Shown: positions 9,982-63,072 of the stretch, in pieces
Layout: each line of letters opens with the position of its first letter
How positions within the stretch are numbered: position 1 is the stretch's first letter
From: Pelagomonas calceolata
Lineage: Eukaryota > Sar > Pelagophyceae > Pelagomonadales > Pelagomonadaceae
NCBI GenBank assembly: GCA_918797485.1
Contig: CAKKNE010000005.1
Location: 744,001 to 808,000, forward strand
Reading direction: 5' to 3'
DNA length: 64,000 bases
Notes under the pieces: model-generated
Told to the model about the DNA's origin: nothing
The model's input: only the letters and a program-made list of their open reading frames with translations
The model's database searches: none
Translations under genes and position numbers: made by a program

Positions 9982-10005
9982 GCTAGTGTCTTACAGGCCG
10001 CTAGC
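9982..10005 (+). promoter_or_regulatory. CTAG-type inverted promoter element
   Basis: Perfect copy of the recurrent quasi-palindrome, forward orientation. It lies 79 bp before the glucose-6-phosphate isomerase ATG and 210 bp before the divergent RING gene start. Confidence 0.6.
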
Positions 10006-10083
10006 TCTTGCAGTACTCGAGCTTGCACCGTGAGGTTGCGCGAGTTGATTCGTTGTGCAGATTGTCTTCGATAACTTCCAGCA

Positions 10084-11921
10084 ATGCGTTTCGCCACGCT
10101 AGCACTGCTGGCAGCCACCCGTGCCGCCGGGACCAAGAGCAGCCTCGGCCCTGCAGCCCTGGCTCCGCAACAACAGCGGGACGCAGCCATCGATGCACTA
10201 CGCCATCATGTAAACGAGGAGGTAGAACAGCGCCACCTGCGCGACTTACTAGAGGACGAGGCCCGCTGCAACGCGTGCACCGCCGAGGCGTGCGGCCTCT
10301 ACCTCGACTTCGCGCGGCAGAAGGTCACAGTTCATACAATCGATTTGTTGATAAACGTGGCAAGAGCCTGTAATGTGGAAGAGAAGCGCGACGCCATGTT
10401 CCGGGGCGAGGTGATGAATCCCACGGAGAATAGAAGTGTGCGCCACGTGTCGCTGCGAGCGACGAGGGGCGACCCATATGCAATAGAGGAGGCCCAGGAC
10501 ACGCTGGACCGCGTTTTAGATTTTGCGCGGGCCGTAAGAAGTCGCCACGTCAGGGGCAGCTCGGGCGAAGCACTCGTAGATGTGGTCGCGATCGGCATCG
10601 GCGGAAGCTCCCTAGGACCGGCCTGCGTCCACGAGGCGCTCGCTTCGGAGTACGCGAGCGAAGCGGATGGTAGACGGCTCCGATTTATTGCGAACGTCGA
10701 CCCCGTCGAGACGGAGATGGCGTTACGAGATTTAGATCCGGCCTCGACTTTAGTGATCGTGATCTCCAAGACCTTCACGACGAAGGAGACGATGCTCAAC
10801 GCGGCGTTGGTCAAGACGTGGCTCGGTGAACAATACGAGAGTCATATGTGCGCCGTGACGGCCGCCGCGGAAAAAGCCCGCGCGTTCGGCTGCGAACGAA
10901 TTTTTGGGTTCGGCGACTATGTGGGAGGCCGCTACTCGGTCTGGTCGCCCGTCGGCTGCCTGCCGCTCGCGCTCCAGTACGGCGTCCGGCCCGTGCGCGA
11001 GCTGCTAAGGGGCGCGCGGGCCATGGACTTACATTTCCGCGAGGCGCCTTTGTCTGAGAACCTGCCGGTGTTGCTGGCCCTCGTCGGCTTCCTCAACGCC
11101 TTTATATATGAAAGGGACTGCCGCGCGGTGCTGCCCTACGCGCGGGCCTTATCGCTCTTCCCCCGCTACGTCCAGCAGCTCGAGATGGAGAGCAACGGGA
11201 AGGGCGTCGACGTCGAGGGGAACGCGCTAACCGAGCCGGCGGGCGAGGTGGTCTTCGGCGAGGCGGGGACGCCGGGCCAGCACTCGTTCTACCAGCTGCT
11301 GCACCAGGTCCGTGCTTCCCGCGTCTCGCGGTTCTACCCCACCGCGCTATCGCCCGCGGGGCTCGCGAACGCGTGCCTCCGCCGCCGCCGCGACGCGTCG
11401 ACGGCGCGCGCAATCGCGGCGTGCTTGCGCGAACACGTTCGCCACGACGCGCGGACGAGCGGCACCAAACGCCATCGCTGCGCCCCGCGCAGGGCCTGCG
11501 CGTCGTGCCCTGCGAGTTCCTCGGCGTCTGCCAGGGCGACGGCGAGAACCACGACGAGCTCTTCCGGAACTTTTGTGCGCAGGCCGACGCGCTGGCGCTC
11601 GGAGATGACGGGGGCGGGGACAATCATAGGCGGTGCCCGGGCGACCGGCCGTCGCTTTCGTTGATGCTCGACCGCGTCGACGCGTTCCACGTCGGCGCGC
11701 TGCTCGCGCTCTACGAGCACCGCACGGCGGCGCAGGGCTGGCTGTACGGCGTGAACTCCTTCGACCAGTTCGGCGTCGAGCTCGGGAAGCGCCTCGCCGG
11801 TTTAATCGAGTCGGGGGACGCGGCGACGGCGTCGACGCGGGCGCTGCTCGCGCGGTACCGGGCGAAGCGCGTGGCGCGGATGGAGGCGCTCGCTGCTGGG
11901 GGCGGCGGCGCCTCGGAGTAA
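10084..11921 (+). CDS. GPI: Glucose-6-phosphate isomerase (spliced)
   Basis: Interconverts glucose-6-phosphate and fructose-6-phosphate. Exon 1 is 10084-11307, exon 2 is 11493-11921. Joining gives GQHSFYQLLHQ/GLRVVPCEFLG and a 550-residue protein, the normal family length. Signature segments are GIGGSSLGP, SKTFTTKET, GRYSVWSPVG and the active-site HQ region. The first 16 residues (MRFATLALLAATRAAG) look like a signal peptide, so a plastid or secretory-route isoform is possible. No clear A-F-A-P motif follows. The intron is GC-rich with GTCCGT donor and GCGCAG acceptor. Confidence 0.92.
11308..11492 (+). other. GC-rich intron of GPI
   Basis: 185 bp, GTCCGT...CCGCGCAG, required to join the two GPI frames. 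It contains several self-complementary GACGCG/CGCGTC stretches and the words GCGACGCGTCGACGGCG and CGCCATCG that recur in other introns of this window. It may be an old introner, but no clean terminal repeats remain. Confidence 0.75.
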
Positions 11922-12289
11922 GTTGTTGTGTGTCGCCTTTTCCACCGCGTTGGCGGGTGGCTTGCACGCGCTAGCTGCGGATTTACACGAATTGCAGACG
12001 ACGCTAGCCTTATTCTTCGGCGACGTGCCCTTCGGCGCCGACGCCGCGCGGAAAGCTGGGGGATCGGTTTGCGGACCTAGATGGTGATCCAAGGCGGACG
12101 GTCGCGGTCGCGACGGAGATGATCCGCCAGTCGCACAACTCCGAGCGCGCGGAGCAGTACGACGGGTACCAGTGGCGGACGAACGGCATCGTGCCTTAAG
12201 CTTATTCTTTGTGACTTACCCACTGCGTTACGTCTACTGCCTCGAGCCTTGTGATAGGCTTGTGGCAGCAGTCCTGGTCTTCGCCGTAG

Positions 12290-12601
12290 ATGCCGGGCAC
12301 CTCGCGTTGCACGAAGAGCGTCGTCCGGCCGGCGCGGCGCTGCATTCAGCCGCCGATGACTCCGGCGGCGACGCGCCGGCGCGTGTCCACGGGCTACACC
12401 GACGAGGCGCGCCGCGTCGCCGGCGAGCTGCGGCTCGAAGATGAGACGATCAATACGAATCTCGTACGGCGCATCGCCGTGGTCCATCACGCGTTCCCAA
12501 ATGAGGACGGGACGCGGGAGCCTCTCGTTGACGCCGTCCGCGGGCTCGTCTTCGACGACGAGAGCAAGGACGACGACGACGACGATATGGAGACCACCTA
12601 G
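12290..12601 (+). CDS. Hypothetical acidic-tailed ORF, probably an exon
   Basis: 103 residues from an ATG that directly follows an in-frame TAG. The last two thirds (STGYTDEARRVAGELRLED, RRIAVVHHAFPNEDG, then a poly-Asp tail and METT) have protein-like composition and a sharp stop. An upstream segment (about 12060-12199, reading GDRFADLDGDPRRTVAVATE) also looks coding and ends in its own stop, so the true gene may be spliced. I recognise no family. The surrounding 11.9-13.0 kb holds nothing else I can support. Confidence 0.35.
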   Translation: MPGTSRCTKSVVRPARRCIQPPMTPAATRRRVSTGYTDEARRVAGELRLEDETINTNLVRRIAVVHHAFPNEDGTREPLVDAVRGLVFDDESKDDDDDDMETT

Positions 12602-12986
12602 GCTGCAGTTTTAAGTTCTATTTTTGACCACTTGTACCGGCTCGGTGCGGTCGCGAGCGACGCGGCCGCGGCGACCAAAAATCGTCTCAGGTCCCTCGGA
12701 GGTCCTCCCTTCGTCGGATGAACGCTCAAAAAGGTAAAACAAAGGTGTTGCCGAAAATCGAACATTTTCTTGCAATCGGCCTCTCTTAAACACGAATGAA
12801 TTTGTTTGTGACTGGATTTATTTTAGCGGCTCGCTGCGCGCCGCTAAGCCTGTCTTCTACGTCGTCCGATCACACGTGGAAGAAGGGCCGGACACTCCTC
12901 CTGGGAGCCTTGGGAGCACAACTCACCGCCGTCGCGGGTCCGAAGCGACGCGCGACGCGGGGCGGACACTACCATAAGAAGACGCT

Positions 12987-14123
12987 TTAGGGCGCCGGCG
13001 CCGCCCCCTCCTGCTGCACCGCGCCCGCGGCGGCGGGCGCGGGCGCCGCGGCCTTGGCCGCGCGCGCTTTCGCTTCGCGCTTGATCTGCTGGATCTGCAT
13101 GTAGAGGTTGTTCCGGTAGTCCTGGGCGCTCAGCTTCGTGTTGTCATCCACAGCAATCTTCACGGGGCCGCCCGGGAAGTCGGGCTCCTCCTCGGACTTG
13201 TGGAACTCGCCCACGAAGGGGTCCTCGAGCGCTTGCGCCGCCGTCACGCGCTTCGACGGGTTGAATTTGAGGCAGGCATGTAATAAAGGCGGTCCCGCCG
13301 GCTCGGACCCGCCGAGGCTCAGCTCGCGCTTCGGCACGGGCCCGATCGACTCGAGCATGCGCTCCGCGTACTGCGACCCCGACGCCGCGACGTCCTCGGG
13401 CGACGGCTTGCCCGTCAGCTCGATGACCTTCTCGAGCTGGTTCACGGTACTCGTCCCCGGGAAGATGGGCTTGCCGCCGAGCATCTCGCCCAGGATGCAG
13501 CCCACGGCCCACATGTCGACGCCCTTGGTGTAGACGGGACTACCTAGCAAAATCTCGGGCGCCCGATACCATCTCGTGGCCACATAGTCCGTCAGCGCGG
13601 GCTGCGTCGTCGTCTGGCACTCCGCCACGCTTCGACACAACCCAAAATCACAAACCTTGACGTGGCAGTCGCTGTTCAACAAAAGGTTCGAAGGCTTGAT
13701 GTCGCGGTGCAGTAAATCGCCGGAGTGCATATATTTCAAGGCCTTCAGTAGTTGATAGACGATATACTTCTTGTGGATCTCTTCGAGGATGTTCGCCCGA
13801 ATGACCGCATGTAAGTCCGTCTCCATGTGGTCAAAAGTCAGGTAGATATCCCTGTCGTTCTCCGCCTTGATGATGTGCTGCAACCGAATAATGTTCTCAT
13901 GCCCACTCAACTGCTGCAGGTACATGATCTCCCTGAACGTTCGTTGCGCGTCCGTGCCGTTGCGGAACGCGTCGAAGCACTTCTTGAGCGCGACGGTGCT
14001 CCGCGACCGCCGCTCGATGGCCTTCCAGACCACGCCGTAGGCGCCCTTGCCCAGGCGCTGGCAGACCTCGAAGCGCTTGCGCACGTGGCGCTCGACGTCC
14101 TCGTCGGCCGGCTCGGCAGCCAT
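12987..14123 (-). CDS. MAPK15/ERK7-like atypical MAP kinase with TDY loop
   Basis: 378 residues from the ATG at 14123 (MAAEPADEDVERH); the longer frame upstream is low-complexity and rejected as start. Kinase features: GKGAYGVVWKA glycine loop, VALKK lysine, HRDIKPSN catalytic loop, DFGLC, activation loop LTDYVATRWYRAPE, and the family-typical KGVDMWAVGCILGEML and GKPIFPGTSTVNQLEK. These match the ERK7/8 (MAPK15) branch, which in other eukaryotes acts in cilium and autophagy control. The phospho-acceptor motif is Thr-Asp-Tyr instead of Thr-Glu-Tyr. The tail is Ala/Pro-rich and short. Confidence 0.9.
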   Translation of the reverse strand: MAAEPADEDVERHVRKRFEVCQRLGKGAYGVVWKAIERRSRSTVALKKCFDAFRNGTDAQRTFREIMYLQQLSGHENIIRLQHIIKAENDRDIYLTFDHMETDLHAVIRANILEEIHKKYIVYQLLKALKYMHSGDLLHRDIKPSNLLLNSDCHVKVCDFGLCRSVAECQTTTQPALTDYVATRWYRAPEILLGSPVYTKGVDMWAVGCILGEMLGGKPIFPGTSTVNQLEKVIELTGKPSPEDVAASGSQYAERMLESIGPVPKRELSLGGSEPAGPPLLHACLKFNPSKRVTAAQALEDPFVGEFHKSEEEPDFPGGPVKIAVDDNTKLSAQDYRNNLYMQIQQIKREAKARAAKAAAPAPAAAGAVQQEGAAPAP

Positions 14124-14463
14124 GATGGCTCCGGAGATGGCTCGTGAAGGCTGCCTTCCCGCGGGGCGCGCGAGCGTTTCGCTCGGAGAGGTGGCTTGTG
14201 AAGCTCGCGACGACGATGCCTTGCTCCGGAGGCAGCCCGCTGCACCTAGCTCCGCGCCTCTGGGGTCGCCGGGCCGGATGCGCTGTGTCCTGGTCTTCGG
14301 GGCTTCCCGAGGGCACGAGACGAGACGTCTCCCCGGCGACGGTGGAGTGGTCGGGCGCGCCATCGGGAGAGTATTTTAGAGCGTGTTTTTTTTTTCGGCG
14401 GGTTTTGTCAGCAGCCTTACTTTTTTTCCTAGGTACCACCCTTGGGGATGAGGTCAGTAACTG

Positions 14464-15123
14464 CTACAACGGCAGGCGAGGGTTCGATGGGTCGATGATG
14501 GGGTCAATGGGTTGCGGCAGGTACTTCTCGTAACGCGTCCCGCGCAAGGTATCGCGAACGTCCCCCCAGTTCGAAACGTGGTCGGCGATGGAACCAGTGT
14601 GCACCTGGGCGAAACTTGGTGGCGATGGAGCCTTCGCCTCGGGCGCGCACCGCGCCTCAGTCGCCAAGTCGCCCAGGATCCACCGCCGCATGTCATCTAG
14701 GACCGCGTTGTCTGCGTCGACCCGTCGCGTGAGGACGCCATAGTCCGTCGCGCGGAGCCACAGACCCCTCAACTCGTCGAGCACCGCCCGCTCGTCATCC
14801 AATAATTTTATGAGTTCGTCGCCCGCGGGCATGAGCGCCCGCCGCATCTCCCGCTCCGCTCCACTCGCGGTCGTGATCTTGCGTCGCTCGGCCCGGAGCG
14901 ACCGCCAGAGCTCCGCCACCGCTGGCGCGGTCAGGTTACGGCGGGTCCGCGGCGCGAGCCCGTCGGCGAGCCGGTCGGCGAGGTCTCGCGGGGCGCGGTG
15001 CGCCGCCGCGGCGCGGTAGCCCGCGTACATGGCGTCCTGGAAAGGTGTGGAGCGAGTGCCATGGCAGGAGCAATCGTCGCACCAAGCGCCCTGCGCCAGG
15101 AGGATGAGCAAAACGGGTCGCAT
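14464..15123 (-). CDS. Secreted hypothetical protein
   Basis: 219 residues from the ATG at 15123, chosen because it begins with a signal peptide (MRPVLLILLAQGAWC) after which a Cys-containing CDDCSCHG segment follows. The rest is helical with many Arg/Glu residues and no membrane segment. I recognise no family. The frame continues upstream to 15288, but that part runs through a dispersed repeat and is unlikely to be translated. Confidence 0.6.
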   Translation of the reverse strand: MRPVLLILLAQGAWCDDCSCHGTRSTPFQDAMYAGYRAAAAHRAPRDLADRLADGLAPRTRRNLTAPAVAELWRSLRAERRKITTASGAEREMRRALMPAGDELIKLLDDERAVLDELRGLWLRATDYGVLTRRVDADNAVLDDMRRWILGDLATEARCAPEAKAPSPPSFAQVHTGSIADHVSNWGDVRDTLRGTRYEKYLPQPIDPIIDPSNPRLPL

Positions 15124-15221
15124 CGTCTGATCTACGACGCCTACGCCTCCTAACCTCGAGGCTAGTATGTCACACGTAGTTAAAGCACTAATCCAGCGTA
15201 ACGATGAATCGGCGACGCGCG

Positions 15222-15296
15222 GTGTCTCCCCCCCAGGGGCTCCGCCCACTAGTCCTAGCACCGTAACATCGACTACTAGTCCTAGCACCGTAGCAA
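15222..15296 (+). repeat. Dispersed repeat with CCTAGCACCGTA words
   Basis: A segment with a C-run, then CTCCGCCCACT and GTCCTAGCACCGTAAC, closely matching 29753-29798. The end of the unit (CTAGTCCTAGCACCGTA) is repeated again at about 15275-15293. It lies about 100 bp upstream of the secreted-protein start at 15123 and may be part of its promoter. Confidence 0.6.
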
Positions 15297-15417
15297 TAAA
15301 GCAAAAGAAACATCGCAGTAGAAAATAGACGTCCCCGTCGTCGCGATACTACGCCTTGGCTATATCTGTTATATATTCAATATGCTGACTATTCACACGG
15401 CCCGCGGCAGGCGCCCG

Positions 15418-16407
15418 TCACGCGAGCGCGCCCTCGAAGATGATACGGGGCTTCTGGAAGATGGTCTGGACGTGGTTCGTGGCCACCTCGTGGACGGCCG
15501 ACGCGAGGCCGAGCCGCTCCGCGGCGCCGACCGTCGCGAGGACGTCGTCGCGCGACAGGTACGGGTCCGCCGGGTTGTGCAGGAAGACCGCGCGCTTCGG
15601 CGGCGGCGCCGCCGGCGCGCGACCGAACGCGACGCGGGCCGCGTGGGCCACGATGGGCTCGTAGTTGCCCCGGCGCGCCGCCGAGGAGGACACGCGCAGC
15701 CAGCGCGTCGTGAGGTCCCGCCACGCGCATGGGTGCCGCCCCAGCCGCCGCAGGAACCAGTGCTGGACCCGTAGCCGGAAGGCCGTCACGGACCACCGCG
15801 TCCTTATGAGGAACAGATGGAGCGGCTGCGGGAAGAGGTCCACGACCTTGCCGAAGGGCAGGGCGTCGCGCATGAACTGCCGCGCGAAGGTCGTGAAGGC
15901 CCGCGGCTTCGGTAAGATCGGCGTCGAGTCCAGCAGCAGCGTATCACACGCCAGCGGCACGCCCGCGCCGCGCGTCAGGTAGTAGTTCAGGAAGCCGCCG
16001 CTCATGCAGTGCACCACATCAAAATGCCTCGCTAGTTCATGTTCCTTGCCCAGCCGCGCGTTCCGCCGGAAATTCTTGTACCAGCCGCTCGGCCGCGCGA
16101 CCTCTTTTACGGGCGACGGGACGACGACACACTCATACCCGTTCTTCGCGTAGCGCTTCTCGATGAGTGCGAGCTCGCGGTCGCTCGCGCCGAAGAAACC
16201 GAAGACGGCCGCGGTCTTGCGCTGGTGGCCGTTCGCGGCCTCGGCGGCGGTCGGCGCCGCGGCGGTGGCCGGTGGCGCGTCGCTGGTCGTTGCCGCGCCG
16301 GCGTCCGCGGCGCGGCGAGGCTGCATGGGCTGCAGGGCCTTAGGCGGTGCAACTAATGCATGGCTACAAGCGAGGAAACTGGAGAGCAATGCGATCCGTC
16401 GTCGCAT
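15418..16407 (-). CDS. Plastid-targeted DUF829/TMEM53-like alpha/beta hydrolase
   Basis: 329 residues from the ATG at 16407. The N-terminus is a signal peptide followed by HALVAPPK, then an Ala/Thr-rich transit-like region, a bipartite presequence suited to a secondary plastid. The body fits the DUF829 family: VFGFFGASDRELALIEKRY at the start, a nucleophile elbow VHCMSGGF, LDSTP, then an Asp in HNPADPYLSRDDV and a His in ATNHVQTIF completing a Ser-Asp-His triad. The substrate is unknown; an esterase or lipase activity is inferred. Divergent from the chorein gene. Confidence 0.78.
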   Translation of the reverse strand: MRRRIALLSSFLACSHALVAPPKALQPMQPRRAADAGAATTSDAPPATAAAPTAAEAANGHQRKTAAVFGFFGASDRELALIEKRYAKNGYECVVVPSPVKEVARPSGWYKNFRRNARLGKEHELARHFDVVHCMSGGFLNYYLTRGAGVPLACDTLLLDSTPILPKPRAFTTFARQFMRDALPFGKVVDLFPQPLHLFLIRTRWSVTAFRLRVQHWFLRRLGRHPCAWRDLTTRWLRVSSSAARRGNYEPIVAHAARVAFGRAPAAPPPKRAVFLHNPADPYLSRDDVLATVGAAERLGLASAVHEVATNHVQTIFQKPRIIFEGALA

Positions 16408-16736
16408 GGTTCTCAATTCGTTGCTTCGCTTAAACGTGCAGTCCTGTCGGCGCGGAGGTCTTTTTTTGACCAATGTCAGCAGCCCTCCCGCTAAATGAGC
16501 CTCGAGTTAAACCAGGACCCATCCATGCGCGGACGGCTCTTCCTATGCCTCTGCGGACCGGTAAACGCAGGGAACTGGATGGTGATTGTCGTGCGGGGCG
16601 ACCAATCTCTCGAGCCTGCGAGCAGGCAGGAGATGAAAAAGAGCCCCCATGCACCCGGCACGCTGCACGTAGCAACTCGCATCGCATCGCATCGGTGCGA
16701 GATAGCTGCCCCACTTGCGTGCGCAGACCCTCAGCC

Positions 16737-19463: not shown

Positions 19464-19554
19464 GTATACTTTAACCTCGATTTTTATTTTACTTATTTTT
19501 GCTTTTTTTTGCTTCGAGCGAGGCACTTGGCACCCTCGAGCAATCATTGCGTCC

Positions 19555-19577
19555 GCTAGTGTCTTACAGGCCGCTAG
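19555..19577 (+). promoter_or_regulatory. CTAG-type inverted promoter element
   Basis: Near-perfect forward copy, about 90 bp after the chorein gene stop and 255 bp before the ATG at 19832. Confidence 0.55.
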
Positions 19578-19831
19578 GCCACAGATTTTTAACGACCAAA
19601 CGTCGGCAGAGATTTACGACGCAGCAAGAACCGCATTCCTCCTGAGTCTCTCTTACAGCACTACTTCGGCAGCCACAACGCTACAAATCGCGTTTGCATC
19701 GCAAAGTCTATTAGCGCGCCAGAAAACCACCTGTCACAGCCCAGCGCACAACGCCTCAGAACGTACGTCGCAGCAACCACGACCACCAAACAGCCGTCGC
19801 AGCGGCAAGTAACACGCCGTCAAAACCGCAA

Positions 19832-21357: not shown

Positions 21358-21625
21358 TAAGATTCTTTCTGGGTTTCTTGTTGTTTTCTATCCGATATAT
21401 AGCGTCGATAGGCGTCCGCTCGCCGCTCGCTCCGCCGCTCAACCAACGGGTTTTTCCAGGCAATATCAGCCGGGTCTGTCAGTCTGCCCGCGGACCTGGA
21501 AATTGACAGGGCTCTCTACGACCCCCGCTGACGCGCCGCGCTAGAAACTATACGTTTAGAGGACCACAAGGCTCCCCACAAGCAAATTTCTGATCACTAG
21601 GAATCATCCAAAGCCAGCGCGTAAC

Positions 21626-22442: not shown

Positions 22443-22465
22443 GAGGCCTAAGACACTCGAGGAAG

Positions 22466-24182: not shown

Positions 24183-24252
24183 AGGCAGGCTGCTATGCTA
24201 GCGTGCAATGAGACACTCTAGCAATCACACAATGCCATATTTTTTTTGCGAC

Positions 24253-31799: not shown

Positions 31800-32426
31800 A
31801 TGCTGGGGCTCGCAATAGTCGCTGCGTGCTGCACGGGAAGCGCGGCCCTCGCCGCCGCCACCAGCAAGCCGTGGGTCGGCGGACAATCCGCCAGCAAGCC
31901 GCCGCGCGAGCTGCTCGGCCGCGGCGCGTACGCGCACTTCGAAACGATCCCGACGCGCTGGAACGACATGGATGCGCAGCAGCACGTGTGGTTCAGCGTC
32001 TCGATGCGTGCGATCGCGGCGATGGCGTTCCAGCCGACGCGACTCCGTCGAGACCCGCGCCATCGACGCGACGTTCTCTACGCACAGGTCAACAACGCCG
32101 TCTACCATTTTTATATGGACGACGCCGTCAACCTGCACCTCGCCCGCAGCGGTGTGTCAAATGACGTGAGGCGCTTCACGTCCGAGAACAGCTGCCGGTA
32201 CCTGCGGCAGCTCTCGTGGCCGACGCCCGTCGAAATAGGTATGAGGGTACGCCTCGGCCGCGCGAGCGCGGCGTACCAGCTCGGGCTCTTTGCCGAAAAT
32301 GATGAAGACGCGTCCGCGATCGGCACGTTCACGCACATCTACGTCGACGACCGGGGGAAGCCCTGCCGCATGGACGAGAGTGTGAGGACAGCGCTCGAGC
32401 CCCTCGTGCCCGACGACGGGCTGTAG
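31800..32426 (+). CDS. 4HBT-type hotdog thioesterase (spliced)
   Basis: Exon 1 31800-31985 and exon 2 32088-32426 give 174 residues. Without splicing, a 34-residue basic insert splits the signature; spliced, it reads RWNDMDAQQH/VNNAVYHFYMDD, the classical 4-hydroxybenzoyl-CoA thioesterase motif with its catalytic Asp. Later blocks (SCRYLRQLSWPTPVEIGMRV and GTFTHIYVDD) complete the fold. It likely hydrolyses an acyl-CoA. The start MLGLAIVAACCTGSAALAAA resembles a signal peptide, perhaps the first half of a plastid presequence. Convergent with the WW-domain gene 18 bp away. Confidence 0.85.
   Translation: MLGLAIVAACCTGSAALAAATSKPWVGGQSASKPPRELLGRGAYAHFETIPTRWNDMDAQQHVWFSVSMRAIAAMAFQPTRLRRDPRHRRDVLYAQVNNAVYHFYMDDAVNLHLARSGVSNDVRRFTSENSCRYLRQLSWPTPVEIGMRVRLGRASAAYQLGLFAENDEDASAIGTFTHIYVDDRGKPCRMDESVRTALEPLVPDDGL
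31986..32087 (+). mobile_element. In-frame introner-like intron in the thioesterase gene
   Basis: 102 bp, GTGTGG donor and CGCACAG acceptor, no in-frame stop, length divisible by three. The ends are partly inverted repeats (GTGTGG...TCTCGATGCG against CGCCATCGACGCGACG...CGCACAG). Removal restores an uninterrupted family motif. Confidence 0.8.
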
Positions 32427-33295: not shown

Positions 33296-33320
33296 GCTAG
33301 TGCCTTTACCGGCCGCTAGC
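33296..33320 (+). promoter_or_regulatory. CTAG-type inverted promoter element
   Basis: Forward copy with one extra central base, 165 bp upstream of the WW-protein start at 33131. Confidence 0.55.
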
Positions 33321-33400: not shown

Positions 33401-33465
33401 GGCGAAGCGTTCGGGGTCCGTACTACCTGGGGGTGGGTTCAATAAGTGGCTCTCTCTCTCTCTCC
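33401..33465 (+). repeat. Dispersed 65-bp repeat ending in a CT run
   Basis: GGCGAAGCGTTCGGGGTCCG followed by TACTACCTGGGGG, GGGTTCAATAAG and a (CT)n run. An inverted copy lies at 62979-63045. Both copies sit within about 150 bp of a CTAG-type promoter element. Confidence 0.7.
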
Positions 33466-34661: not shown

Positions 34662-35411
34662 ATGGCGAAGACAGTGCTGGACAAGGTGTGAGGCAGTGTC
34701 CTGTGAGTGGCAGCCAGGGACGTCGCATCGATGGCGTGGGGGTGCGCACAACCCCTTTCGCCATCGATGCAAGCGGAGGATTGCCGCACGAAGAGTTACG
34801 CCATCGATGCGACGCGTTGCCCGAGGACGCGCCGTGTGCAGGTCATCGTCGCGATCCGAGCAGTTCAGGATCACAAAGGTGCATCGCGCCAGGCCATCGT
34901 CAAGTATCTCAAGTCAGAGTTCCAGTGCGAGAATGGAGTCGCCATCAAGAAGGCTTTGAAATCAGACAAATTGATCCAGACGGGCCAGAGCTTCCGAGTG
35001 AAGGGCGATGCACCCATCGCGCCGCCGGCCGACGAAGTAGTCGGAACGGAAGACGTTACTGTTGGAGACGGCGCGGTCGCGCAGAAAGGCGACGAGGTCT
35101 CCATGTCCTACGTCGGCACGCTCGAGGCGGACGGCTCGCGCTTCGACGCCGGCACGAACTTCCGCTTCACGCTCGGCGCCGGTCCTTTCCGGAGCAGGAA
35201 TCTCACGTTCGTCGTAGGCGCCCACGGGTCGAATTCACGCACAGGCGACGTCATCAAGGGCTGGGACCGGGGCATAATCGGCATGCGCGTCGGCGGCCGC
35301 CGCAAGCTCGTCGTGCCCAGCAAATTGGGCTACGGCAAGAAAGGCAGCGCCCCCGAGATACCTCCGAACGCGACACTCCTCTTCGACGTCACGCTCGAGC
35401 GCATACTGTAA
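34662..35411 (+). CDS. Histone H1-like winged helix fused to FKBP prolyl isomerase
   Basis: Three exons: 34662-34685, 34842-35181 and 35245-35411; 176 residues. Exon 1 is only eight codons (MAKTVLDK) and joins VIVAIRAVQDHKGASRQAI, the start of an H1/H5-like winged helix that continues to SGFR-like GQSFRVK at about residue 65. A full FKBP domain follows (YVGTLEADGSRFDAGT, FRFTLGAG/DVIKGWDRGIIGM, GYGKKGSAPEIPPNATLLFD), which catalyses peptidyl-prolyl isomerisation. Nuclear, chromatin-linked action is inferred from the fusion. The second intron is in frame and would otherwise add 21 residues inside the active-site loop. Confidence 0.85.
34686..34841 (+). mobile_element. Introner-like intron 1 of the H1-FKBP gene
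   Basis: 156 bp, GTGTGAGG donor and GTGTGCAG acceptor. It contains GCATCGATGGCG and two CGCCATCGATGC words that can pair to form stems. Splicing creates MAKTVLDKVIVAI, a sensible H1-domain start. Confidence 0.75.
35182..35244 (+). mobile_element. Short in-frame intron 2 of the H1-FKBP gene
   Basis: 63 bp, GTCCTT donor and CGCACAG acceptor, no stop codon, divisible by three. Removal restores the FKBP motif LGAGDVIKGWD. Its edges resemble other introners of the window but internal stems are weak. Confidence 0.75.
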
Positions 35412-49586: not shown

Positions 49587-49608
49587 ACTAGTATAGACAC
49601 ACTAGCGG
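49587..49608 (-). promoter_or_regulatory. CTAG-type element, degenerate
   Basis: ACTAGTATAG...CACACTAGCGG, about 240 bp upstream of the ABCG start at 49347. Confidence 0.35.
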
Positions 49609-49762
49609 TTTTCCTGCGACGTAACTAGCCTTAGCCTTAGCCTTTTTTTACAAGTCCAATAGCACCGTAACAGATATCGCACTCACTCCGATCTTTTGGG
49701 TGTCTTTGGTGCTAGCCATCTCCCGCACGTTACAGGTGGACAAAGTCCCACAACTAGAAAAC

Positions 49763-51211: not shown

Positions 51212-51371
51212 TGGCGCTGTACCGAGACTTTGCACTGGGAGACGCGCCGCTGCTTGGCAAGGGGCGGACTGGCGACGGGGCAGCCCCGGCTTGTTTTCCG
51301 TCGTTTGTGGAGCTTGCCACAACCTTGCTTGCCGCCAAAGCCCCCGGAGAGCCCGCGCTGTTAAATAATCT

Positions 51372-51394
51372 GCTAGCGTCCTGTAACACACTAG
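51372..51394 (-). promoter_or_regulatory. CTAG-type inverted promoter element
   Basis: Reverse copy, 161 bp from the disordered-protein start (51211) and about 108 bp before the candidate ATG at 51502. Confidence 0.52.
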
Positions 51395-51501
51395 AAATAG
51401 GGCCAGGGGTGCAAAAACGACTAAAGCGCTCGCTGTGGCAGCGTTACGACTGTAGTTGTTGGCGCAAAACCACGTTCTCAACGCAGCAATCACTTCACAC
51501 C

Positions 51502-52310: not shown

Positions 52311-52327
52311 TCTAACCCCGCGGGACG

Positions 52328-54424: not shown

Positions 54425-54533
54425 GGTTTATTTATCTGTTGCGCCCGGCGGTCCTTGCGCGCGGGCGTGTGTTATATATTTTAGGTAAATTTTTAGGAGG
54501 CGGGGTGTGGGACGTCGGTGGCGTGGGGGTTGC

Positions 54534-55835: not shown

Positions 55836-56090
55836 TGATCAACGAGAGAGTACTTAAGCGGTCACGAACACTAGACTAACTCGTGCGCCGGCGAAGCTGC
55901 GTACTCGGAGGAACGCCTTACTGGTTTGAACCCGAGTTGAAAGGATTTAGCTCAGGGTTTAGGTACCACCGCGGTCGGGCCTTCCGGCAAGCGCGGAGTA
56001 ACTGGCCAATTGCGAGTCGCTTGAACCACGCGCGCCGCAAGAAGCGTCTGTGGCTAGGGTACTAACAATTCGCCTATTTTGGTAATCCGA

Positions 56091-56114
56091 GCTAGCGGCC
56101 TGTAAGACACTAGC
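56091..56114 (-). promoter_or_regulatory. CTAG-type inverted promoter element
   Basis: Perfect reverse copy of the consensus between divergent genes: 256 bp from 55835 and 143 bp from 56257. Confidence 0.6.
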
Positions 56115-56256
56115 AAGCTTGGTTCTGTGTGGATTTGCCTTTTGAGCGCGCTCGAGCGCGACGTTACCGTGCGTCCAGCTGACGGGAGCGAGAAAATATA
56201 ATCCGCCAGCGCGTTCTGCCTGCGAAAGGCAGCCCTTTGGCAAGCTCTGCGAGACG

Positions 56257-57651
56257 ATGCCCTGGAGGGCAGCCAAGCCTGTGGAGGAGCCCGCGGGCAC
56301 CGATGCGACCACGATGTACCACCGCATCGCTGACTGGTACAACAGCCCGGAAGGCGACGCGCTGCGGGCAGCCTGGGGCGCGTACCCGGCATCGCCAGAG
56401 ACGCTCGAGAGCTGGTCCGGCTTCGTCGCGGTGACCAACGCGTTCCTCGACCACGCGGGCCCGCCGCCGACCGCCCCCGAGACGGTCCAGGTCGAAGAAG
56501 AAGGCCCGCCAGTGAGCGAGGAGCCGTATGAGCCGCCGTTGATGATGGAGGAGGAGCGGGAGGCGCCGGCACTCGGCGAGGAGGCCGCGGCGGAGGAGAC
56601 TGGTGTTGTGGTAGACTGGGCGCTCCTCCGGACGCGAGAGATTCTGACGAACGAGTCGCTGCGCGACAGATTAAAGCGCTGGTGCGCCGGCGACCGCGAG
56701 GGCTTGCCGCCCATCTCGACGTGGAATACGAGCCGGGTCACGGACTTTAGCAAGCTATTCATGAATCAGAAGGGTTTCAACGACGACATCAGCGCGTGGG
56801 ATACTTCTAATGTGATGACGATGGAAGGGATGTTCCGCAACGCCTCGACGTTCAACCAGCCGCTGAACGACTGGCGGGTCGACAAGGTCACAAATATGCA
56901 GCAAATGTTCCAGAGTGCCTCGTCGTTCAACCAGCCGCTGAACAACTGGCGGGTCGACAACGTCACTGATATGGGCGGGATGCTCTGGGGCGCCTCGGCG
57001 TTCAACCAACCACTGAACGACTGGCGGGTCGACAACGTCACGAATATGCGCATGATGTTCAGCTGCGCCGAGGTGTTCAACCAGCCGCTGAACGACTGGC
57101 GGGTCGACAACGTCACGGATATGCGCTGGATGTTCAGGGATGCCTCGGCGTTCAACCAACCGCTGGGCGACTGGCGGGTCGACAAGGCCACAAACACGGA
57201 AGACATGTTCAAAGGAGCTTCGGCCTTCGACATAGACCGCAACTGGGGACTCACGAACGAGACGCTGCGAGATTGGACAAGGCGCTGGTGCGACAGCGAC
57301 CACGAGGGCTTGCCGCACATCTCGACGTGGAATACGAGTAAGGTGACTGACATGAGCTCGCTCTTCCATTGCGACGATGGATTTAACGACGACATCAGCG
57401 CGTGGGATACCTCTAGCGTGACGACGATGATGAATATGTTCAACGGCGCCAAGGCGTTCAACCAGCCGATTGGCGAATGGCGGGTCGACAACGTCACGAA
57501 TATGAGCAATATGTTCCGCTTCGCTTCGTCCTTCGACCAACCCCTGGGCACTTGGAGACTTAGAGCAAACTGCAAAACTCTTCGAATGTTTGAGGGCAGC
57601 AACTTTCGGAACAGCCGCCCAGTGAAGGCGTCGTGCTGCGCCATCTCTTGA
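56257..57651 (+). CDS. DUF285 (BspA-like) repeat protein with CaaX end
   Basis: 464 residues. After an acidic N-terminal region come two repeat blocks (about residues 160-320 and 355-440) of a 25-residue motif with core FNQPL-x-DWRVDNVT-x-M and MF-x2-A, typical of DUF285/PF03382 solenoids. Each block is introduced by ISTWNTS-(K/R)-VTD and FNDDISAWDTS. At DNA level the repeats are near-identical 75-mers, so recent unit duplication is likely. The protein ends ASCCAIS, a CaaX box with an extra Cys, suggesting lipid attachment to a cytosolic membrane face. DUF285 proteins in other organisms are often surface or interaction proteins. Confidence 0.82.
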   Translation: MPWRAAKPVEEPAGTDATTMYHRIADWYNSPEGDALRAAWGAYPASPETLESWSGFVAVTNAFLDHAGPPPTAPETVQVEEEGPPVSEEPYEPPLMMEEEREAPALGEEAAAEETGVVVDWALLRTREILTNESLRDRLKRWCAGDREGLPPISTWNTSRVTDFSKLFMNQKGFNDDISAWDTSNVMTMEGMFRNASTFNQPLNDWRVDKVTNMQQMFQSASSFNQPLNNWRVDNVTDMGGMLWGASAFNQPLNDWRVDNVTNMRMMFSCAEVFNQPLNDWRVDNVTDMRWMFRDASAFNQPLGDWRVDKATNTEDMFKGASAFDIDRNWGLTNETLRDWTRRWCDSDHEGLPHISTWNTSKVTDMSSLFHCDDGFNDDISAWDTSSVTTMMNMFNGAKAFNQPIGEWRVDNVTNMSNMFRFASSFDQPLGTWRLRANCKTLRMFEGSNFRNSRPVKASCCAIS

Positions 57652-57751
57652 ATTCGTTACCTCTGCCCCCATTTCTTTCAGTAAGGCTTCCTTTAGACCT
57701 TTAGAACCTCCTTTATCCTTTAGACTTTAGAGACTTTAGACAACAACATCA

Positions 57752-58912
57752 TTAGATATTCGGCACAAGCATCCCCGCGATCGCGTTCAGGTTCGCGTCG
57801 TCGGCGTCGAGCGCCGCGACGCGGAGCGCGTACTCGACGGCCCGCGGGTCGACGACCTCCTCGGAGACGAGCCACGAAACGATGTCGGTGCGTTTGTAGG
57901 CGCACGCGTGCTCGAGGGGGGTGTGCCCCGCCGCATTTGGCGCTCGGAGATCCACGCGGCAGACATCGCGCAAGTACGCTAGAGTCGCGGTGTCTCCGCC
58001 GGCCGCCGCCCAGTGCGCGCAGGTGCACCCGCGGTCGTTGGCGACGTGCGCGTCCGCGCCGGCCGCGAGCAGCGTCCGCACGGCCGAGACGCCCCCCTGC
58101 CACGCCGCCCAGTGGATGACGGCGTTGCCGTCGTGAGTCGTCGCGCACGCGTCGGCGCCGGCCGAAAGGAGCAGCTCGGCCGCGCCTTCCTCGAAGCCCG
58201 TGCCCGCGGCGTTCCCACGGACGCCGCAGGCCGCCCAGTGGAGCGACGTCGCGCCCGCCGCATCGCGGTCGCGCGCCAGCGCCGCGTCGCTCGCTATCAA
58301 AGCCGAGAGAACGTCGACGGCGCCGCGCCCGGCGGCGACGTGCGCGGCCGACGCGCCGCGGCGGTCCCTGTCTTGCGCCGGCGCCCAGCCGTGGGCTAAT
58401 AGGTCTCGTACTAAGCGCGCGTCGCCGTCCGCGGCCGCGCGCCGGCCGCCGCGCCGGAAGGCCGCCACGAGCGCCGCCACGTCACCCGCGTCGCCGCCGC
58501 AGGCCTCGGCGAAGTCGTCGTGGGTCGCGGGCGTGGCGCAGAGGTCGCCGAGGAGCGGCGGGCGGAGCCCCGGCGTCGCGAGCTGCGCGCCGTGCGGTGC
58601 GCCGACGCGGCGCAAATATGCGTGGCGCGCCGCCAGCACGGCCAGCGGCGTCGACGCGAGCTGCGGCGTCGCTTCGATGAGATCGGTCGCGTCCTCGACG
58701 CCGAAGACCTCGCGTATGAAGCGAAGGATAGGGCCAAGGCGGCCGCGCCGTGCCGCGGCGACGACGGCCGGGTGTTCACGGATCGCGGCGTCGAGTCTGG
58801 CGGCTCGGAAGCCGCAGCCGTCGCCAAATAACGTCAGGCGCGCGGCGTTCGTCTGGCGGAGCGCGTGTGCTGTTGTGGTGAGCGCCGCGACGACGTAGAC
58901 GATTCGTGGCAT
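57752..58912 (-). CDS. Ankyrin-repeat protein with signal peptide and mTERF-like segment
   Basis: 386 residues from the ATG at 58912; the start MPRIVYVVAALTTTAHALRQ is a signal peptide. Residues about 50-110 resemble mTERF-type helical repeats (LGPILRFIREVFGVEDATDL, TPQLASTPLAVLAARHAYLR). From about 190 on are four to five ankyrin repeats (RRGASAAHVAAGRGAVDVLS, TSLHWAACG, NAVIHWAAWQGGVSAVRTLL, CAHWAAAGGDTATLAYLRD, HTPLEHACAYKRTDIVSWLV). A plastid location is possible through the signal peptide. Partner proteins are unknown. Confidence 0.78.
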   Translation of the reverse strand: MPRIVYVVAALTTTAHALRQTNAARLTLFGDGCGFRAARLDAAIREHPAVVAAARRGRLGPILRFIREVFGVEDATDLIEATPQLASTPLAVLAARHAYLRRVGAPHGAQLATPGLRPPLLGDLCATPATHDDFAEACGGDAGDVAALVAAFRRGGRRAAADGDARLVRDLLAHGWAPAQDRDRRGASAAHVAAGRGAVDVLSALIASDAALARDRDAAGATSLHWAACGVRGNAAGTGFEEGAAELLLSAGADACATTHDGNAVIHWAAWQGGVSAVRTLLAAGADAHVANDRGCTCAHWAAAGGDTATLAYLRDVCRVDLRAPNAAGHTPLEHACAYKRTDIVSWLVSEEVVDPRAVEYALRVAALDADDANLNAIAGMLVPNI

Positions 58913-59094
58913 TGCTACGCGGCGATGCGTGCTGGTGCTATATGACATTGGTAGTGCATGGCAGCGCTGCCTCCCACACTGACGGATAATGTCCCAAACG
59001 CTGGCTGGGCGTCAAAGCGCTGGACAGAAATCGTAAGAATGGCCAGGACAGCAGTGTTGGATAGCGTAGCGCCCACACACGAGAGGAGCAAGCA

Positions 59095-59117
59095 GCTAGC
59101 GTATCGAGACACACTAG
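59095..59117 (-). promoter_or_regulatory. CTAG-type inverted promoter element
   Basis: Reverse copy with a diverged centre, 183 bp from the ankyrin start (58912) and 112 bp from the RCC1-BTB start (59229). Confidence 0.5.
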
Positions 59118-59228
59118 TCCCATCGACCTCGAAGCGGCTCTCTGGCTTTGGGCAGCCTCCCTCGCCGCCGCAGGGGCCGATACGTCGAACGAATCGGCGC
59201 GACGGAGCGGGAGACGCGGATCGGCGGC

Positions 59229-62200
59229 ATGGCGCCAGCAGCCGCCGACCCCATGGCTAAGGACACCATGGACTACCTGCAGTCCGTGGCCGCGGCGCGG
59301 GCCCGCTGCGACGCGGTCTTAGCATCGAAAGCAGTCGACGAGCCACAGCCGACGAACGTAGAAAAGACGAAGAACGCGCTGAGCGAGGCGCCGTCGGCCG
59401 CGTCGGTACGCGCCGTGTTTCCCCGCGCGCCGAAGGTGAAAGTGACCGGCGAGCTCCCGGACAAAGACGCGCCGCCGCCGTCGCTCGAAGAGTGCCAAGA
59501 CCTGCTGGGAGACGGCAAAGTGGAAGTTGTCGTAGAGGATTTATCAGGAAGACGCTTCGACGAGGTGCCCGTGCTCGCGTTGCCGAACATGTTCGTGGAA
59601 GCAGGCACGGTAGTGGACGAGGACCCGGCGGCGCGCGGGGCCGTCGGCGGCGTGGCGGGCGCGTGTGCCGCCGCCATCAGAATTGCTGATAGATCATTGC
59701 CGGAGCCGTACGTCGTTTCCCTGGCAAGGGCGTGTACGCAAGTTGCCGTCTTCGGCGCGCAACATTTGAGGCATCCTGAGACACAAGCACCTTTGCCGAG
59801 GTGTCGCAAAGAAGCGTGGACCTTCTCCAAAAAACGGCGGCGGGATAGCTGTGTGTGTCGCATCGGCGTGCATTCTTGGTCATCAACATATAGGGGTCTA
59901 GGTGTAGAAATAGCGACAGCATCGCAAGTCGCTGTCGCTGGTACTGGAGAGGCCGGCGACCAGGCGACGTTGAACTGCGTCGGGCGGCTGTGGTGCCCGC
60001 TCCGACCGGACGTGCTGGGAGACGAACTCGATGAACTCGACGCCATCCAATTCACAAAGTGCTGGTACGAGTTCTGGACCGATTCCGTGGATGAGATAGA
60101 GGACACTTCGACCATAGCACCGCCAAAACGGCTGAAACGATCGACAGCGATAGGCGCCCAAACGGTGGGCTGGGGCGAGTCGCCCATGCGATGCTTGGGG
60201 CGTGATTTAGGAGCAGTAGCTTCCCGACCACAACCACTATTCATCCGAGACCTGGAGGCGCTGGAGCGCATCAAAACCGTCGCGTGCTCCGCGCGGCATA
60301 CGGTAGTCCTGACGTGGCGGGGCCGCGTGTTTTGTTGCGGGGACAACGAAGACGGCGCGTGTGGTGTTGGAGGGACACAAAAAGTATCAAGGTTGGCAGC
60401 AGTCTCGTGGCCCGACGACGCGCCTATACAATGTACGAAAATAGCCGCTGGTGCGGACGTCTTTGGGGCTTCTTCTTGCGCCGTATCAAGTGAAGGGACT
60501 TTATATTGCTGGGGTTCTGGGGTCGCCTGTGCTTGTAGGACGACCGCACCTAGGTTGACCCCTACTGCTGTTTCTTTTTCAGATGAGGACGTTAGGGTTG
60601 TCTCGATCTCGGCGGGCGGGTCGTTCTGTATAGCACTCGACGAAAACAAACGCTTGTGGAGCTGGGGCATGTACGCGTCCGGAAGATTGGGTCTCGGGCA
60701 GCCTCCCAAGATCCGGGATCCTCGCATCCGGGAAGGCGACGTCGAGCGGCCTGGGAGAAGTGCCCGCTTACAATTAGCGCCGAAGCTCATCGAACGAGTA
60801 TCACTCCAAAGAAGCGACAAGATCACGTACTACGAAGCCGACGAATCGCAGACCGTAGCTTCACCAATGTGGGCCTCCGTAGTATGTGGAGAGGCCCACG
60901 CCCTGGCCATCGACGAACATGGTCGGTTGTACGCCTTCGGCTCGAACGCCCACGGCCAGCTAGGCCTGGGCGTGGCGAAGAATGGCGGCACGCAGGACGC
61001 GTTTCTCCCGACACCCGTCAATCCCTTCTTTACGCAGCAAAGAGTCGTCCACGCCTCCGCGGGGCCGACTCACTCCGCTATTATTGACGAGAAGGGCCGG
61101 GCCTGGACCTGGGGCGGCGGCGGCCACGGCTTGGCTTTATTAGGTCATGGCGCGCGGAAAGCCGACGCGCCTCCCCTCATGTCCACGACGGACTGGATGG
61201 CTCGACGAGTTACAGAGAGAAGGAGACCGACGTCCCAAAAGAGTGTGCGAGGGGCGTTTCGAGCAACTAGAACGTTGGTCGAGCTGCGCTTCGCCTGGCC
61301 GCGACGGGTCCACGGGTTGGATGGATTGGCTATTGCCCAAATCGCGTGCGGCGAGCGGCACACCGCGTTCTTGACCCAAGAGGGGTCCTTGTATACTTGT
61401 GGCGACGGTCTAGCTTTATTAGGTGCCGACGAGACGACGGAACGAGCTCGTAGAGTAGGCGAAGTCGTCCGGGACGAGGAGGCGCTGCTGCAAGCTGCGG
61501 TAGAAGCATCAGTAGTGGACGTGCCGCGCCAGCCGAACGCCGCCTGGCTGCCCGCGCTCGACGGGAAGCGCGTCGAGCGTGTTTCCTGTGGCGGCCAGCA
61601 TACCGTTGCATTGGTGAGTGGTTCGCAAGCCGCGCATTTGTTAGGTGCTAAATTATGGAAAGCCGCGAGGAAAGCGACGCAAGAGTTGAATGGCGAACCC
61701 ACGTCTGATGGGGAAGAAGACGCTCTTGTCGATTGCTTATTAGTCCCTGGAGGCGGCGACCCGATCTATGCTCATCTCGCAGTACTAGCTGCTCGGTCGC
61801 CCATGCTTGAAGAGCTCATAATGCTCGAGAAGAGAGAAGACGGCGACGACGACGGTTATTTGCAGATATTAGTGCCTGATCTCAGTCCAAGAGTCTGTGA
61901 ACTCTTCTTAGAATACTGCTATAGAGATGATATTTTCGAGCCTCGAGACGCACCTCTACCACTCCCACTCATAGCGGAACTCAAGAAGGGCGCCGAATTA
62001 TATAAAACACCTAGACTCGCTTCATTATGCAGTCAAGCGCTAGGTAACGTGCAAATCGACGAGTCGTACGACGACGTCTTACCATCTTCATTGGCGGAGG
62101 ATTTCGAAACGCTAGTGAACAAGGGGGACTTCACGGACGTGACCGTGAAGGCGTCGAAGGGTCAAGTCCGGGCGCACCGGCCCGTGCTTGCAGCTAGGTC

Positions 62201-62891
62201 TGACTACTTCCGGGCGATGTTCCGGAGTGGCATGCGGGAATCTATAGATGACGGCTTCCAAGCGAAGCAGCGTTGTAGAGTGGAGGTCTGCGTGCCGGAT
62301 GATGATGATGACGTTTCTAGGTTGTTTCGAGCCGTGTATTCCTCGAAACTACCTTTAGGAGATGGTGATCGATTCTTGCGAGACGTCGTGGCCGCGGATA
62401 GATACGGCTTGGAGGATGTGCGAAGGCTCGGCGAGGCGGGCTGCGCCACGTCTGATTCTGCGGATCGGTCGGTCGTATTACAGACGGCTTCTCGCATTGG
62501 CGCGGCGAACTTGTATTCGGATCAATTAGGTAAAGCTTGTACGGACATCGCGGATTTAAACATCAAGGAGTTGGGCACGGATGTCCTGGAGGATCTGATG
62601 ACGACGATAGCGTCCCAACGACCGCATCTGTTGAGGCCGGCGGCGCCGCCGGAACCACCATATGATCCAGATAAAGTGATATCGACACCAATAGCGGCCG
62701 GCAATTTATCGTGGAAGCATTCGGTCGCCATGACCCTCGCGGCCATGGTGACGTTCATCGCCCAGTCGGCTTATAGATTCCGGCAGACGGCGTCGATGGT
62801 CATCAACGGGATCTTCCTGGTTTTTGTCTTGTGGCTGTACCGGGACTCGGCGCGGCGCGAGGCTGCCAAAGCGCGTAAGAAGAAGGTGTAG
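59229..62891 (+). CDS. RCC1-repeat / double BTB protein with C-terminal membrane segments
   Basis: 1220 residues from ATG 59229. RCC1 blades occur from about residue 230 on (HTVVLTWRGRVFCCGDNEDG, HALAIDEHGRLYAFGSNAHG, HSAIIDEKGRAWTWGGGGHG, HTAFLTQEGSLYTCGDGLAL). Two BTB/POZ domains follow: one around IYAHLAVLAARSPMLEELIM and one at DFTDVTVKASKGQVRAHRPV with LAARSDYFRAMFRSGM. Two hydrophobic stretches near the end (VAMTLAAMVTFIAQSAYRF and MVINGIFLVFVLWLYR) and a basic tail suggest membrane anchoring. BTB domains usually recruit cullin-3, so a membrane-bound substrate adaptor is a reasonable guess. No introns. Confidence 0.85.
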   Translation: MAPAAADPMAKDTMDYLQSVAAARARCDAVLASKAVDEPQPTNVEKTKNALSEAPSAASVRAVFPRAPKVKVTGELPDKDAPPPSLEECQDLLGDGKVEVVVEDLSGRRFDEVPVLALPNMFVEAGTVVDEDPAARGAVGGVAGACAAAIRIADRSLPEPYVVSLARACTQVAVFGAQHLRHPETQAPLPRCRKEAWTFSKKRRRDSCVCRIGVHSWSSTYRGLGVEIATASQVAVAGTGEAGDQATLNCVGRLWCPLRPDVLGDELDELDAIQFTKCWYEFWTDSVDEIEDTSTIAPPKRLKRSTAIGAQTVGWGESPMRCLGRDLGAVASRPQPLFIRDLEALERIKTVACSARHTVVLTWRGRVFCCGDNEDGACGVGGTQKVSRLAAVSWPDDAPIQCTKIAAGADVFGASSCAVSSEGTLYCWGSGVACACRTTAPRLTPTAVSFSDEDVRVVSISAGGSFCIALDENKRLWSWGMYASGRLGLGQPPKIRDPRIREGDVERPGRSARLQLAPKLIERVSLQRSDKITYYEADESQTVASPMWASVVCGEAHALAIDEHGRLYAFGSNAHGQLGLGVAKNGGTQDAFLPTPVNPFFTQQRVVHASAGPTHSAIIDEKGRAWTWGGGGHGLALLGHGARKADAPPLMSTTDWMARRVTERRRPTSQKSVRGAFRATRTLVELRFAWPRRVHGLDGLAIAQIACGERHTAFLTQEGSLYTCGDGLALLGADETTERARRVGEVVRDEEALLQAAVEASVVDVPRQPNAAWLPALDGKRVERVSCGGQHTVALVSGSQAAHLLGAKLWKAARKATQELNGEPTSDGEEDALVDCLLVPGGGDPIYAHLAVLAARSPMLEELIMLEKREDGDDDGYLQILVPDLSPRVCELFLEYCYRDDIFEPRDAPLPLPLIAELKKGAELYKTPRLASLCSQALGNVQIDESYDDVLPSSLAEDFETLVNKGDFTDVTVKASKGQVRAHRPVLAARSDYFRAMFRSGMRESIDDGFQAKQRCRVEVCVPDDDDDVSRLFRAVYSSKLPLGDGDRFLRDVVAADRYGLEDVRRLGEAGCATSDSADRSVVLQTASRIGAANLYSDQLGKACTDIADLNIKELGTDVLEDLMTTIASQRPHLLRPAAPPEPPYDPDKVISTPIAAGNLSWKHSVAMTLAAMVTFIAQSAYRFRQTASMVINGIFLVFVLWLYRDSARREAAKARKKKV

Positions 62892-62978
62892 TTGCAATTC
62901 GATGTGGTGGGGATTGCCGACGCGGGTAATCGACGGGATATGTTACGGGAGGCCGCGGCGCACGAGGATTGCGCGGCG

Positions 62979-63045
62979 AGAGAGAGAGAGAGAGAGTCGC
63001 TTATTGAACCCGCCCCCAGGTAGTACGGACCCCGGAACGCTGGCG
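62979..63045 (-). repeat. Dispersed repeat, inverted copy of 33401-33465
   Basis: A (GA)n run, then CTTATTGAACCCGCCCCCAG and GTAGTACGGACCCCGGAACG, the reverse complement of the unit at 33401. It ends right beside the promoter element at 63049. Confidence 0.7.
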
Positions 63046-63048
63046 AAG

Positions 63049-63072
63049 GCTAGCGGCGTGTAAGATACTAGG
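63049..63072 (-). promoter_or_regulatory. CTAG-type inverted promoter element
   Basis: Reverse copy (GCTAGCGG, GTAAGATACTAGG), 130 bp upstream of the F-box/Kelch ATG at 63202. Confidence 0.55.

Follow-up and report, generated by a model that had tools for sequence, protein, structure and literature searches.

A recurrent two-part element in the window

The window, a 64-kb stretch of the Pelagomonas calceolata genome (C5:744001-808000), contains in its intergenic gaps many copies of a 24-letter element of the form GCTAGCGG-N(1-3)-GTAAGACACTAGC. About 19 copies had been listed in the original prediction. All 19 places hold the described sequence, and 18 of them pass our gapped weight matrix; the exception lies at 49587, and one additional copy was found at 24197. 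The sites are given below with their window positions and matrix scores.

9982-10005, minus strand: element copy in a divergent gap; 43.8 bits, spacer CCT
19555-19578, minus strand: element copy in a tandem (+ +) gap; 32.3 bits
24197-24222, plus strand: element copy absent from the original list, in a divergent gap; 5-bp spacer, 28.9 bits
24249-24271, plus strand: element copy with damaged left half, in a divergent gap; 17.5 bits
24670-24692, plus strand: element copy in a divergent gap; 40.2 bits
26512-26533, minus strand: element copy in a tandem (- -) gap; 20.9 bits
29718-29741, plus strand: element copy in a tandem (- -) gap; 37.2 bits
31600-31623, plus strand: element copy between divergent genes for an ELFV-type amino-acid dehydrogenase and a 4HBT thioesterase (Pfam); 38.4 bits
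33296-33320, minus strand: element copy in a tandem (- -) gap; 26.0 bits
34523-34544, minus strand: element copy between divergent EGF-like and FKBP/linker-histone genes (Pfam); 41.9 bits
37128-37151, minus strand: element copy in a divergent gap; 36.8 bits
39118-39140, plus strand: element copy in a tandem (+ +) gap; 19.2 bits
41273-41297, minus strand: element copy between divergent flavodoxin and Snf7 genes (Pfam); 31.0 bits
42887-42908, plus strand: element copy in a divergent gap; 28.4 bits
46472-46494, plus strand: element copy in a divergent gap; 25.1 bits
49587-49606, plus strand: degenerate variant ACTAGTATAGACACACTAGC, originally listed, below the matrix threshold
51372-51395, plus strand: element copy in a divergent gap; 36.1 bits
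56091-56114, plus strand: element copy in a divergent gap; 41.7 bits
59095-59118, plus strand: element copy between divergent ankyrin and RCC1/BTB genes (Pfam); 24.0 bits
63049-63072, plus strand: element copy at the window edge, the right-hand gene lying outside the view; 33.7 bits

According to Pfam, the genes flanking these copies have mixed functions, and no function common to the element-bearing genes is apparent in the window. One of the annotated genes, at 34707-35411 on the plus strand, is a predicted one-ORF fusion of a linker-histone domain with an FKBP peptidyl-prolyl isomerase.

Abundance and sequence grammar

We searched 32,445,274 bases in 8 contigs. The published assembly of P. 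calceolata comprises six nuclear contigs (32.4 Mb), a 90-kb plastid contig and a 39-kb mitochondrial contig, with 63% GC, 16,667 genes and 0.45 introns per gene (PMC9481584). A genome-wide search with the strict pattern CTAGCG-N(5-12)-ACACTAG yielded 3,506 copies against 8 for the reversed-pattern control, which corresponds to one copy per about 9 kb in 32 Mb. Exact right halves numbered 1,741 and full GG forms 1,177, each against 0 in the reversed control. Within the window, 20 sites match the consensus at 16 or more of 21 positions; order-2 Markov simulations gave 0.7 such sites, and the reversed sequence gave none. Two sites that passed this simple match counting, at window position 11953 and at C2 8852, were dropped, as they are devoid of a CTAG pair at their ends and do not pass the weight matrix.

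Scoring and placement were analyzed in a 224-kb sample from five chromosomes, composed of the 64-kb window and 40 kb each of C2, C3, C4 and C6; it represents 0.7% of the genome and has a site density somewhat above that of the genome as a whole. The weight matrix identified 50 sites of at least 16.8 bits in this sample and none between 10 and 16.8 bits, with no site above 11 bits in the reversed sequence. The element thus scores in an all-or-none manner, without copies of intermediate score. Given that 34 of the 50 sampled sites fit the strict pattern, the genome total is suggested to be roughly 5,000 sites. In an unbiased k-mer count of promoter gaps, the element ranks first by a wide margin. 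Two of its patterns were also searched in IMG/VR for a viral origin and gave no match. A search of the open literature found no paper that describes the sequence in this context, and the P. calceolata genome and transcriptome papers that we checked mention no promoter motifs.

The 50 copies yield the consensus (A)GCTAGCGG-N(1-3)-GTAAGACACTAGC(AAGC), with sharp edges and a total of about 32 bits. Its center is variable, as had been predicted, and almost every strict copy has a spacer of 1-3 bp, a narrower range than the proposed 0-4 bp. A count by eye over 100 listed strict matches gave about 70 spacers of 3 bp, 25 of 2 bp, 4 of 1 bp and a single one of 4 bp. The element had also been described as a quasi-palindrome, a description that the half-site grammar does not support in a functional sense. 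Compared with the 3,506 asymmetric CTAGCG..ACACTAG copies, the symmetric form CTAGTG..CACTAG occurs 136 times genome-wide (control, 7), and the symmetric form CTAGCG..CGCTAG occurs 41 times against 48 in the control, which is the chance level. Thus the element needs both CTAGCG and ACACTAG, and neither half can replace the other despite their common CTAG ends; a functional palindrome is not present. Furthermore, no co-variation of the outer bases as pairs was found. A simple homodimer site is disfavored by the non-interchangeable halves and the lack of co-variation, and a DNA or RNA hairpin or cruciform is disfavored by the latter together with the rarity of symmetric forms. Two different contacts connected by a short flexible joint would best fit the grammar of the element.

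Placement relative to genes

Genes in the sample were called, independently of the published annotation, with a small frame-aware ab initio coding model trained on the 224 kb; the positions of ATGs are approximate. About 77% of the sample is coding. None of the 50 sites lies in coding sequence and none in the 42 convergent gaps; 29 are found in divergent gaps, 18 in tandem gaps and 3 at sequence edges. A second set of 34 loci from chromosome 1 gave a similar distribution: 18 are in divergent and 13 in tandem gaps, 2 lie at the edge of a locus, one is convergent and none is coding. These counts bear out the original observations that copies avoid coding sequences, that most of them sit between divergent genes, and, apart from the single convergent locus in the second set, that convergent spacers are free of them. 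As convergent gaps are short, we compared length-matched gaps of 200-800 bp, of which 24 of 40 divergent and 0 of 10 convergent ones are occupied (Fisher p 7e-4). The element is therefore restricted almost completely to promoter regions. The element occupies 27 of the 44 divergent gaps and, among tandem gaps of at least 300 bp, 16 of 33. Since about 40-50% of promoter-type gaps are without a site, the element is not a universal core element.

The distance from the element to the inferred ATG ranges from 51 to 932 bp with a median of about 190 bp, so the predicted 80-400 bp was roughly right; the distances in tandem gaps are similar to those in divergent gaps. The orientation relative to the gene is random, at 27:28 in divergent gaps and 8:9 in tandem gaps. 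In divergent gaps, the element is positioned closer to the center than expected from uniform placement (KS p 4e-5).

Moreover, the element is nearly always unique within its gap. Exactly one copy is present in 26 of the 44 divergent gaps, and more than one in a single gap. Of all 87 promoter-type gaps, only 1 holds more than a single copy, whereas random placement would give 9.5 such gaps; none of 20,000 simulations reached a value as low. Under length-weighted random placement, 6.4 multi-copy gaps are expected among the divergent gaps (0 of 20,000 simulations as low) and 2.9 among the tandem gaps (p 0.006). With almost always exactly one copy per gap, a single copy seems to serve both genes of a divergent pair. 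Tandem promoters, which drive one gene, use the element as well, so the word "bidirectional" in the original proposal is a description of how the element is shared and not of a class of genes.

Retention in a relative

A motif scan of prokaryote genomes matched four contigs, all in marine bacterial MAGs. Three of them, L055 (NZGT01000041.1), L056 (CAJWEZ010000013.1) and L057 (NZGT01000013.1), are pelagophyte nuclear contigs within the MAGs "Spirochaeta sp. MED672" and ERR599032_bin.133; they match the pelagophyte genome at 83-97% and look misbinned, an apparent contamination of reference genomes. The fourth contig, L058 in ERR599052_bin.23, also bears the element. L057 and C6:2236569-2246679 share 8 kb of synteny, with an identity of 83-94%, and L055, L056, L101 and L102 align to the reference genome at 90-97%, L056 being of nearly the same lineage as the reference. 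These contigs provide a relative for comparison.

Comparison of orthologous gaps revealed that the reference retains the element in 7 of the 8 gaps that bear it in the relative; as the relative's contigs were found via the motif, this comparison is one-sided and covers retention in the reference only. In six diverged gaps, the element is 75-95% identical and the flanks are 28-76% identical, often near the 51% obtained for random 50-mers. The seventh gap, from L056, is nearly identical throughout. For the eighth and weaker copy of the relative, at L057:460, the reference shows no clear counterpart. Across these gaps, both gap length and spacer length vary and the site stays, as selection on its presence would predict. 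One ortholog is inverted: the copy at C6:2239 kb and that at L057:5352-5374 lie between the same flanking genes in opposite directions and are 92% identical when each is read in its own orientation. The persistence of sites amid drifted flanks, together with this inversion, points to selection on the presence of the element and not on its orientation. The lack of convergent copies in the sample, the indifference to orientation, the central position in divergent gaps, the single copy per gap and the conservation at orthologous positions all support the original view of a selected, promoter-linked, non-coding site.

Relationship to mobile DNA

An alternative explanation sees the 24-mers as footprints left by excision, or as remnants, of a small promoter-preferring transposon; they would have no function and persist only by recency. 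Several observations favor it. A search with longer spacers gave 26 matches, mostly long forms such as CTAGCGG-CCTGTACTTACAGG-TAAGACACTAG and CTAGCGG-CCTGTACAGG-TAAGACACTAG. About 30 long forms, the former and shorter variants, resemble two element ends joined at junctions that vary; several of them have the repeat GAGGAGATACCGTCCCCGGGGCGCGGCTTCCAGGGCTC on their left and GCATCCCTAG on their right. In addition, the spacer varies as it would in a repair junction, and 12 of 84 copies show some flank similarity to other loci. However, no full-length element with such ends was found, and the 34 right and 26 left long-form ends, whose halves are up to about 40 bp apart, revealed no distant pairing. 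The 224 kb contain 0 isolated exact right halves and one isolated 12/13 match, and target-site duplications are no commoner than in shuffled flanks. Debris should also be carried by convergent spacers and introns. Nor do the sites show the neutral decay expected of transposon remnants, given the retention in 7 of 8 gaps, six of them with drifted flanks, and the absence of intermediate scores. Taken together, retention, uniqueness per promoter, the lack of target duplication and the lack of decayed copies mean that mobile DNA fails as a full explanation, and we regard functionless debris as unlikely. As a minority of copies lie in or beside dispersed repeats, mobile repeats carry, or insert beside, some copies and may have spread them. 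The original argument against transposon copies thus holds for most sites, with the exception of a minority that comprises the copies with flank similarity, the long forms and several copies in or beside a dispersed repeat.

Several repeats were noted in the course of this analysis. Long forms at L079, L083, L087, L088, L089, L092 and other loci are flanked by a repeat GAGGAGATACCGTCCCCGGGGCGCGGCTTCCAGGGCTC...GGAAATCCCGCG, with GCATCCCTAG or GGATGC on the right. The copies of another dispersed repeat, about 156 bp long and at least 30 in number, share the start TGTTACGGTGCTAGGACTAGTGGGCGGAGCCCCTGGGGGGGAGACACCGCG and vary at the end; several lie 8-27 bp from an element. Examples are located at window 15203-15268, L057:299-455, L010:2199-2335 and L003:1348-1474, and the relative has this repeat too; a search of Rfam gave no match for it. 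A 60-bp repeat occurs in two copies of 93% identity at window 33402-33464 and 62982-63041, near the elements at 33296 and 63049. Short tandem CCTTAGCC/CCTGAGCC tracts adjoin elements or element-like sites at window 49613-49637, near position 571 of the C2 sample and near position 32190 of the C4 sample (L050).

Proposed function

What we observed directly is the sequence of the element, how abundant it is in the genome and where it lies, its limit of one copy per gap, its indifference to orientation, the strict asymmetry of its halves around a flexible spacer of 1-3 bp, and its retention in orthologous gaps. These observations are consistent with a binding site for a sequence-specific and abundant promoter factor, which is probably what the element is; the factor would act in the manner of a yeast general regulatory factor (GRF). 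In the putative model, a dedicated DNA-binding protein would read the element as two half-sites. Each promoter would have one docking place for it, facing either way, some 100-300 bp before the start codon. From there the factor would hold the promoter open and in position, for a single gene in tandem arrangements or for both genes in divergent ones. Acting on transcription or on nucleosomes, it may support initiation of one or both adjacent genes.

For a general factor, an information content of about 32 bits and a lack of sites with intermediate scores would be unusual. A further, tentative proposal is a lineage-specific system, in which one dedicated factor with an unusually long asymmetric two-part site might be the main organizer of about half of the promoters, its sites being partly seeded by mobile repeats and free to flip in evolution. 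In this proposal the recognition site would be similar in length to those of REST and CTCF.

The bound factor might instead serve as a boundary or insulator that keeps adjacent divergent promoters independent without activating them, as proposed for BEAF-32-type proteins in flies. The central placement in divergent gaps, the single copy per gap and the lack of orientation preference would suit such a role. However, tandem promoters also bear the element (16 of 33 gaps of at least 300 bp), at similar ATG distances, and convergent gaps, which are possible boundary places too, are without it; we thus find this role rather improbable. A replication origin or ORC-binding site is very unlikely: the sites are long, orientation-free and intergenic, and compact genomes often have their origins in the gaps that hold promoters, but one site per about 9 kb is far denser than usual origin spacing, and the bias among gap types fits promoters; convergent gaps would suit origins too. 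An RNA hairpin or processing signal in 5' leaders, to which the imperfect inverted repeat and the resemblance of GTAAG to a splice donor might point, is scarcely credible given the random orientation to the gene, the lack of co-variation, the disfavored symmetric forms, and the absence of Rfam matches at four element-bearing loci.

Comparison with known systems

The proposed promoter-factor site can be compared with GRF sites, which help to set nucleosome-depleted regions in yeast (PMC11069190) and shape promoter directionality (PMC9481977). Like the sites of Reb1, Abf1 and Rap1, the element is found upstream of many functionally unrelated genes, with 3,506 strict copies and mixed flanking functions. 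GRF sites tolerate either orientation, and the element is neutral to orientation in its placement. Abf1 sites are also bipartite. GRF sites are in general shorter and less informative, and many weaker versions exist, whereas the element is 24 bp long, carries about 32 bits, is strictly asymmetric with a free 1-3 bp spacer and has no weak versions.

The vertebrate CGCG element (TCTCGCGAGA) induces bidirectional transcription in TATA-less CpG-island promoters (PMC6192621). Both it and the present element are single sequences at many promoters, and a single shared copy in divergent gaps is likewise the rule here (26 of 44). However, the CGCG element is a 10-bp true palindrome, in contrast to the 24-bp asymmetric two-half element, whose symmetric forms are rare, and the two have no sequence similarity. 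The element thus resembles GRF sites and the CGCG element in its proposed role, and by sequence is a member of neither group.

The Drosophila motifs of BEAF-32, DREF and M1BP also recur at the promoters of many genes and, in flies, at domain boundaries (PMC5768762), but differ from the element in sequence and length. Like families of MITE or transposon footprints, the element exists in thousands of short and nearly identical copies, with a few long forms and some copies next to repeats; it differs from such families in the lack of full-element terminal repeats and target duplication and in its retention under flank drift. Within the stramenopile lineage, oomycete core promoter elements are known genome-wide (PMC3599244). 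These are situated at the start site, whereas the pelagophyte element lies upstream, is orientation-neutral in placement and has a different sequence.

P. calceolata is among the most abundant ocean eukaryotes. The element offers a bait sequence for the proposed factor, can help to annotate promoters and divergently paired genes, and is a candidate part for expression constructs. It is likewise a clean case in which to ask how long and nearly identical regulatory sites come to exist by the thousands, remain single in each promoter and reverse their orientation.

Other promoter signals

Promoter gaps without the element are enriched in AAACCCG (14 of 42, against 4 of 45 gaps with the element; p 0.007, the word having been tested after the fact) and in AAAACCCG(T) (11 of 42 against 3 of 45). 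A form of the latter, AAAACCCGTG, is 2.7-fold over the reversed control genome-wide. AAACCCG and AAAACCCG(T) possibly mark a second, alternative promoter class. GGCTGCC is present in gaps both with and without the element. Finally, GGGCTGCC and GGGCAGCC are strongly enriched in promoter gaps regardless of the element and often lie within 120 bp of the ATG.
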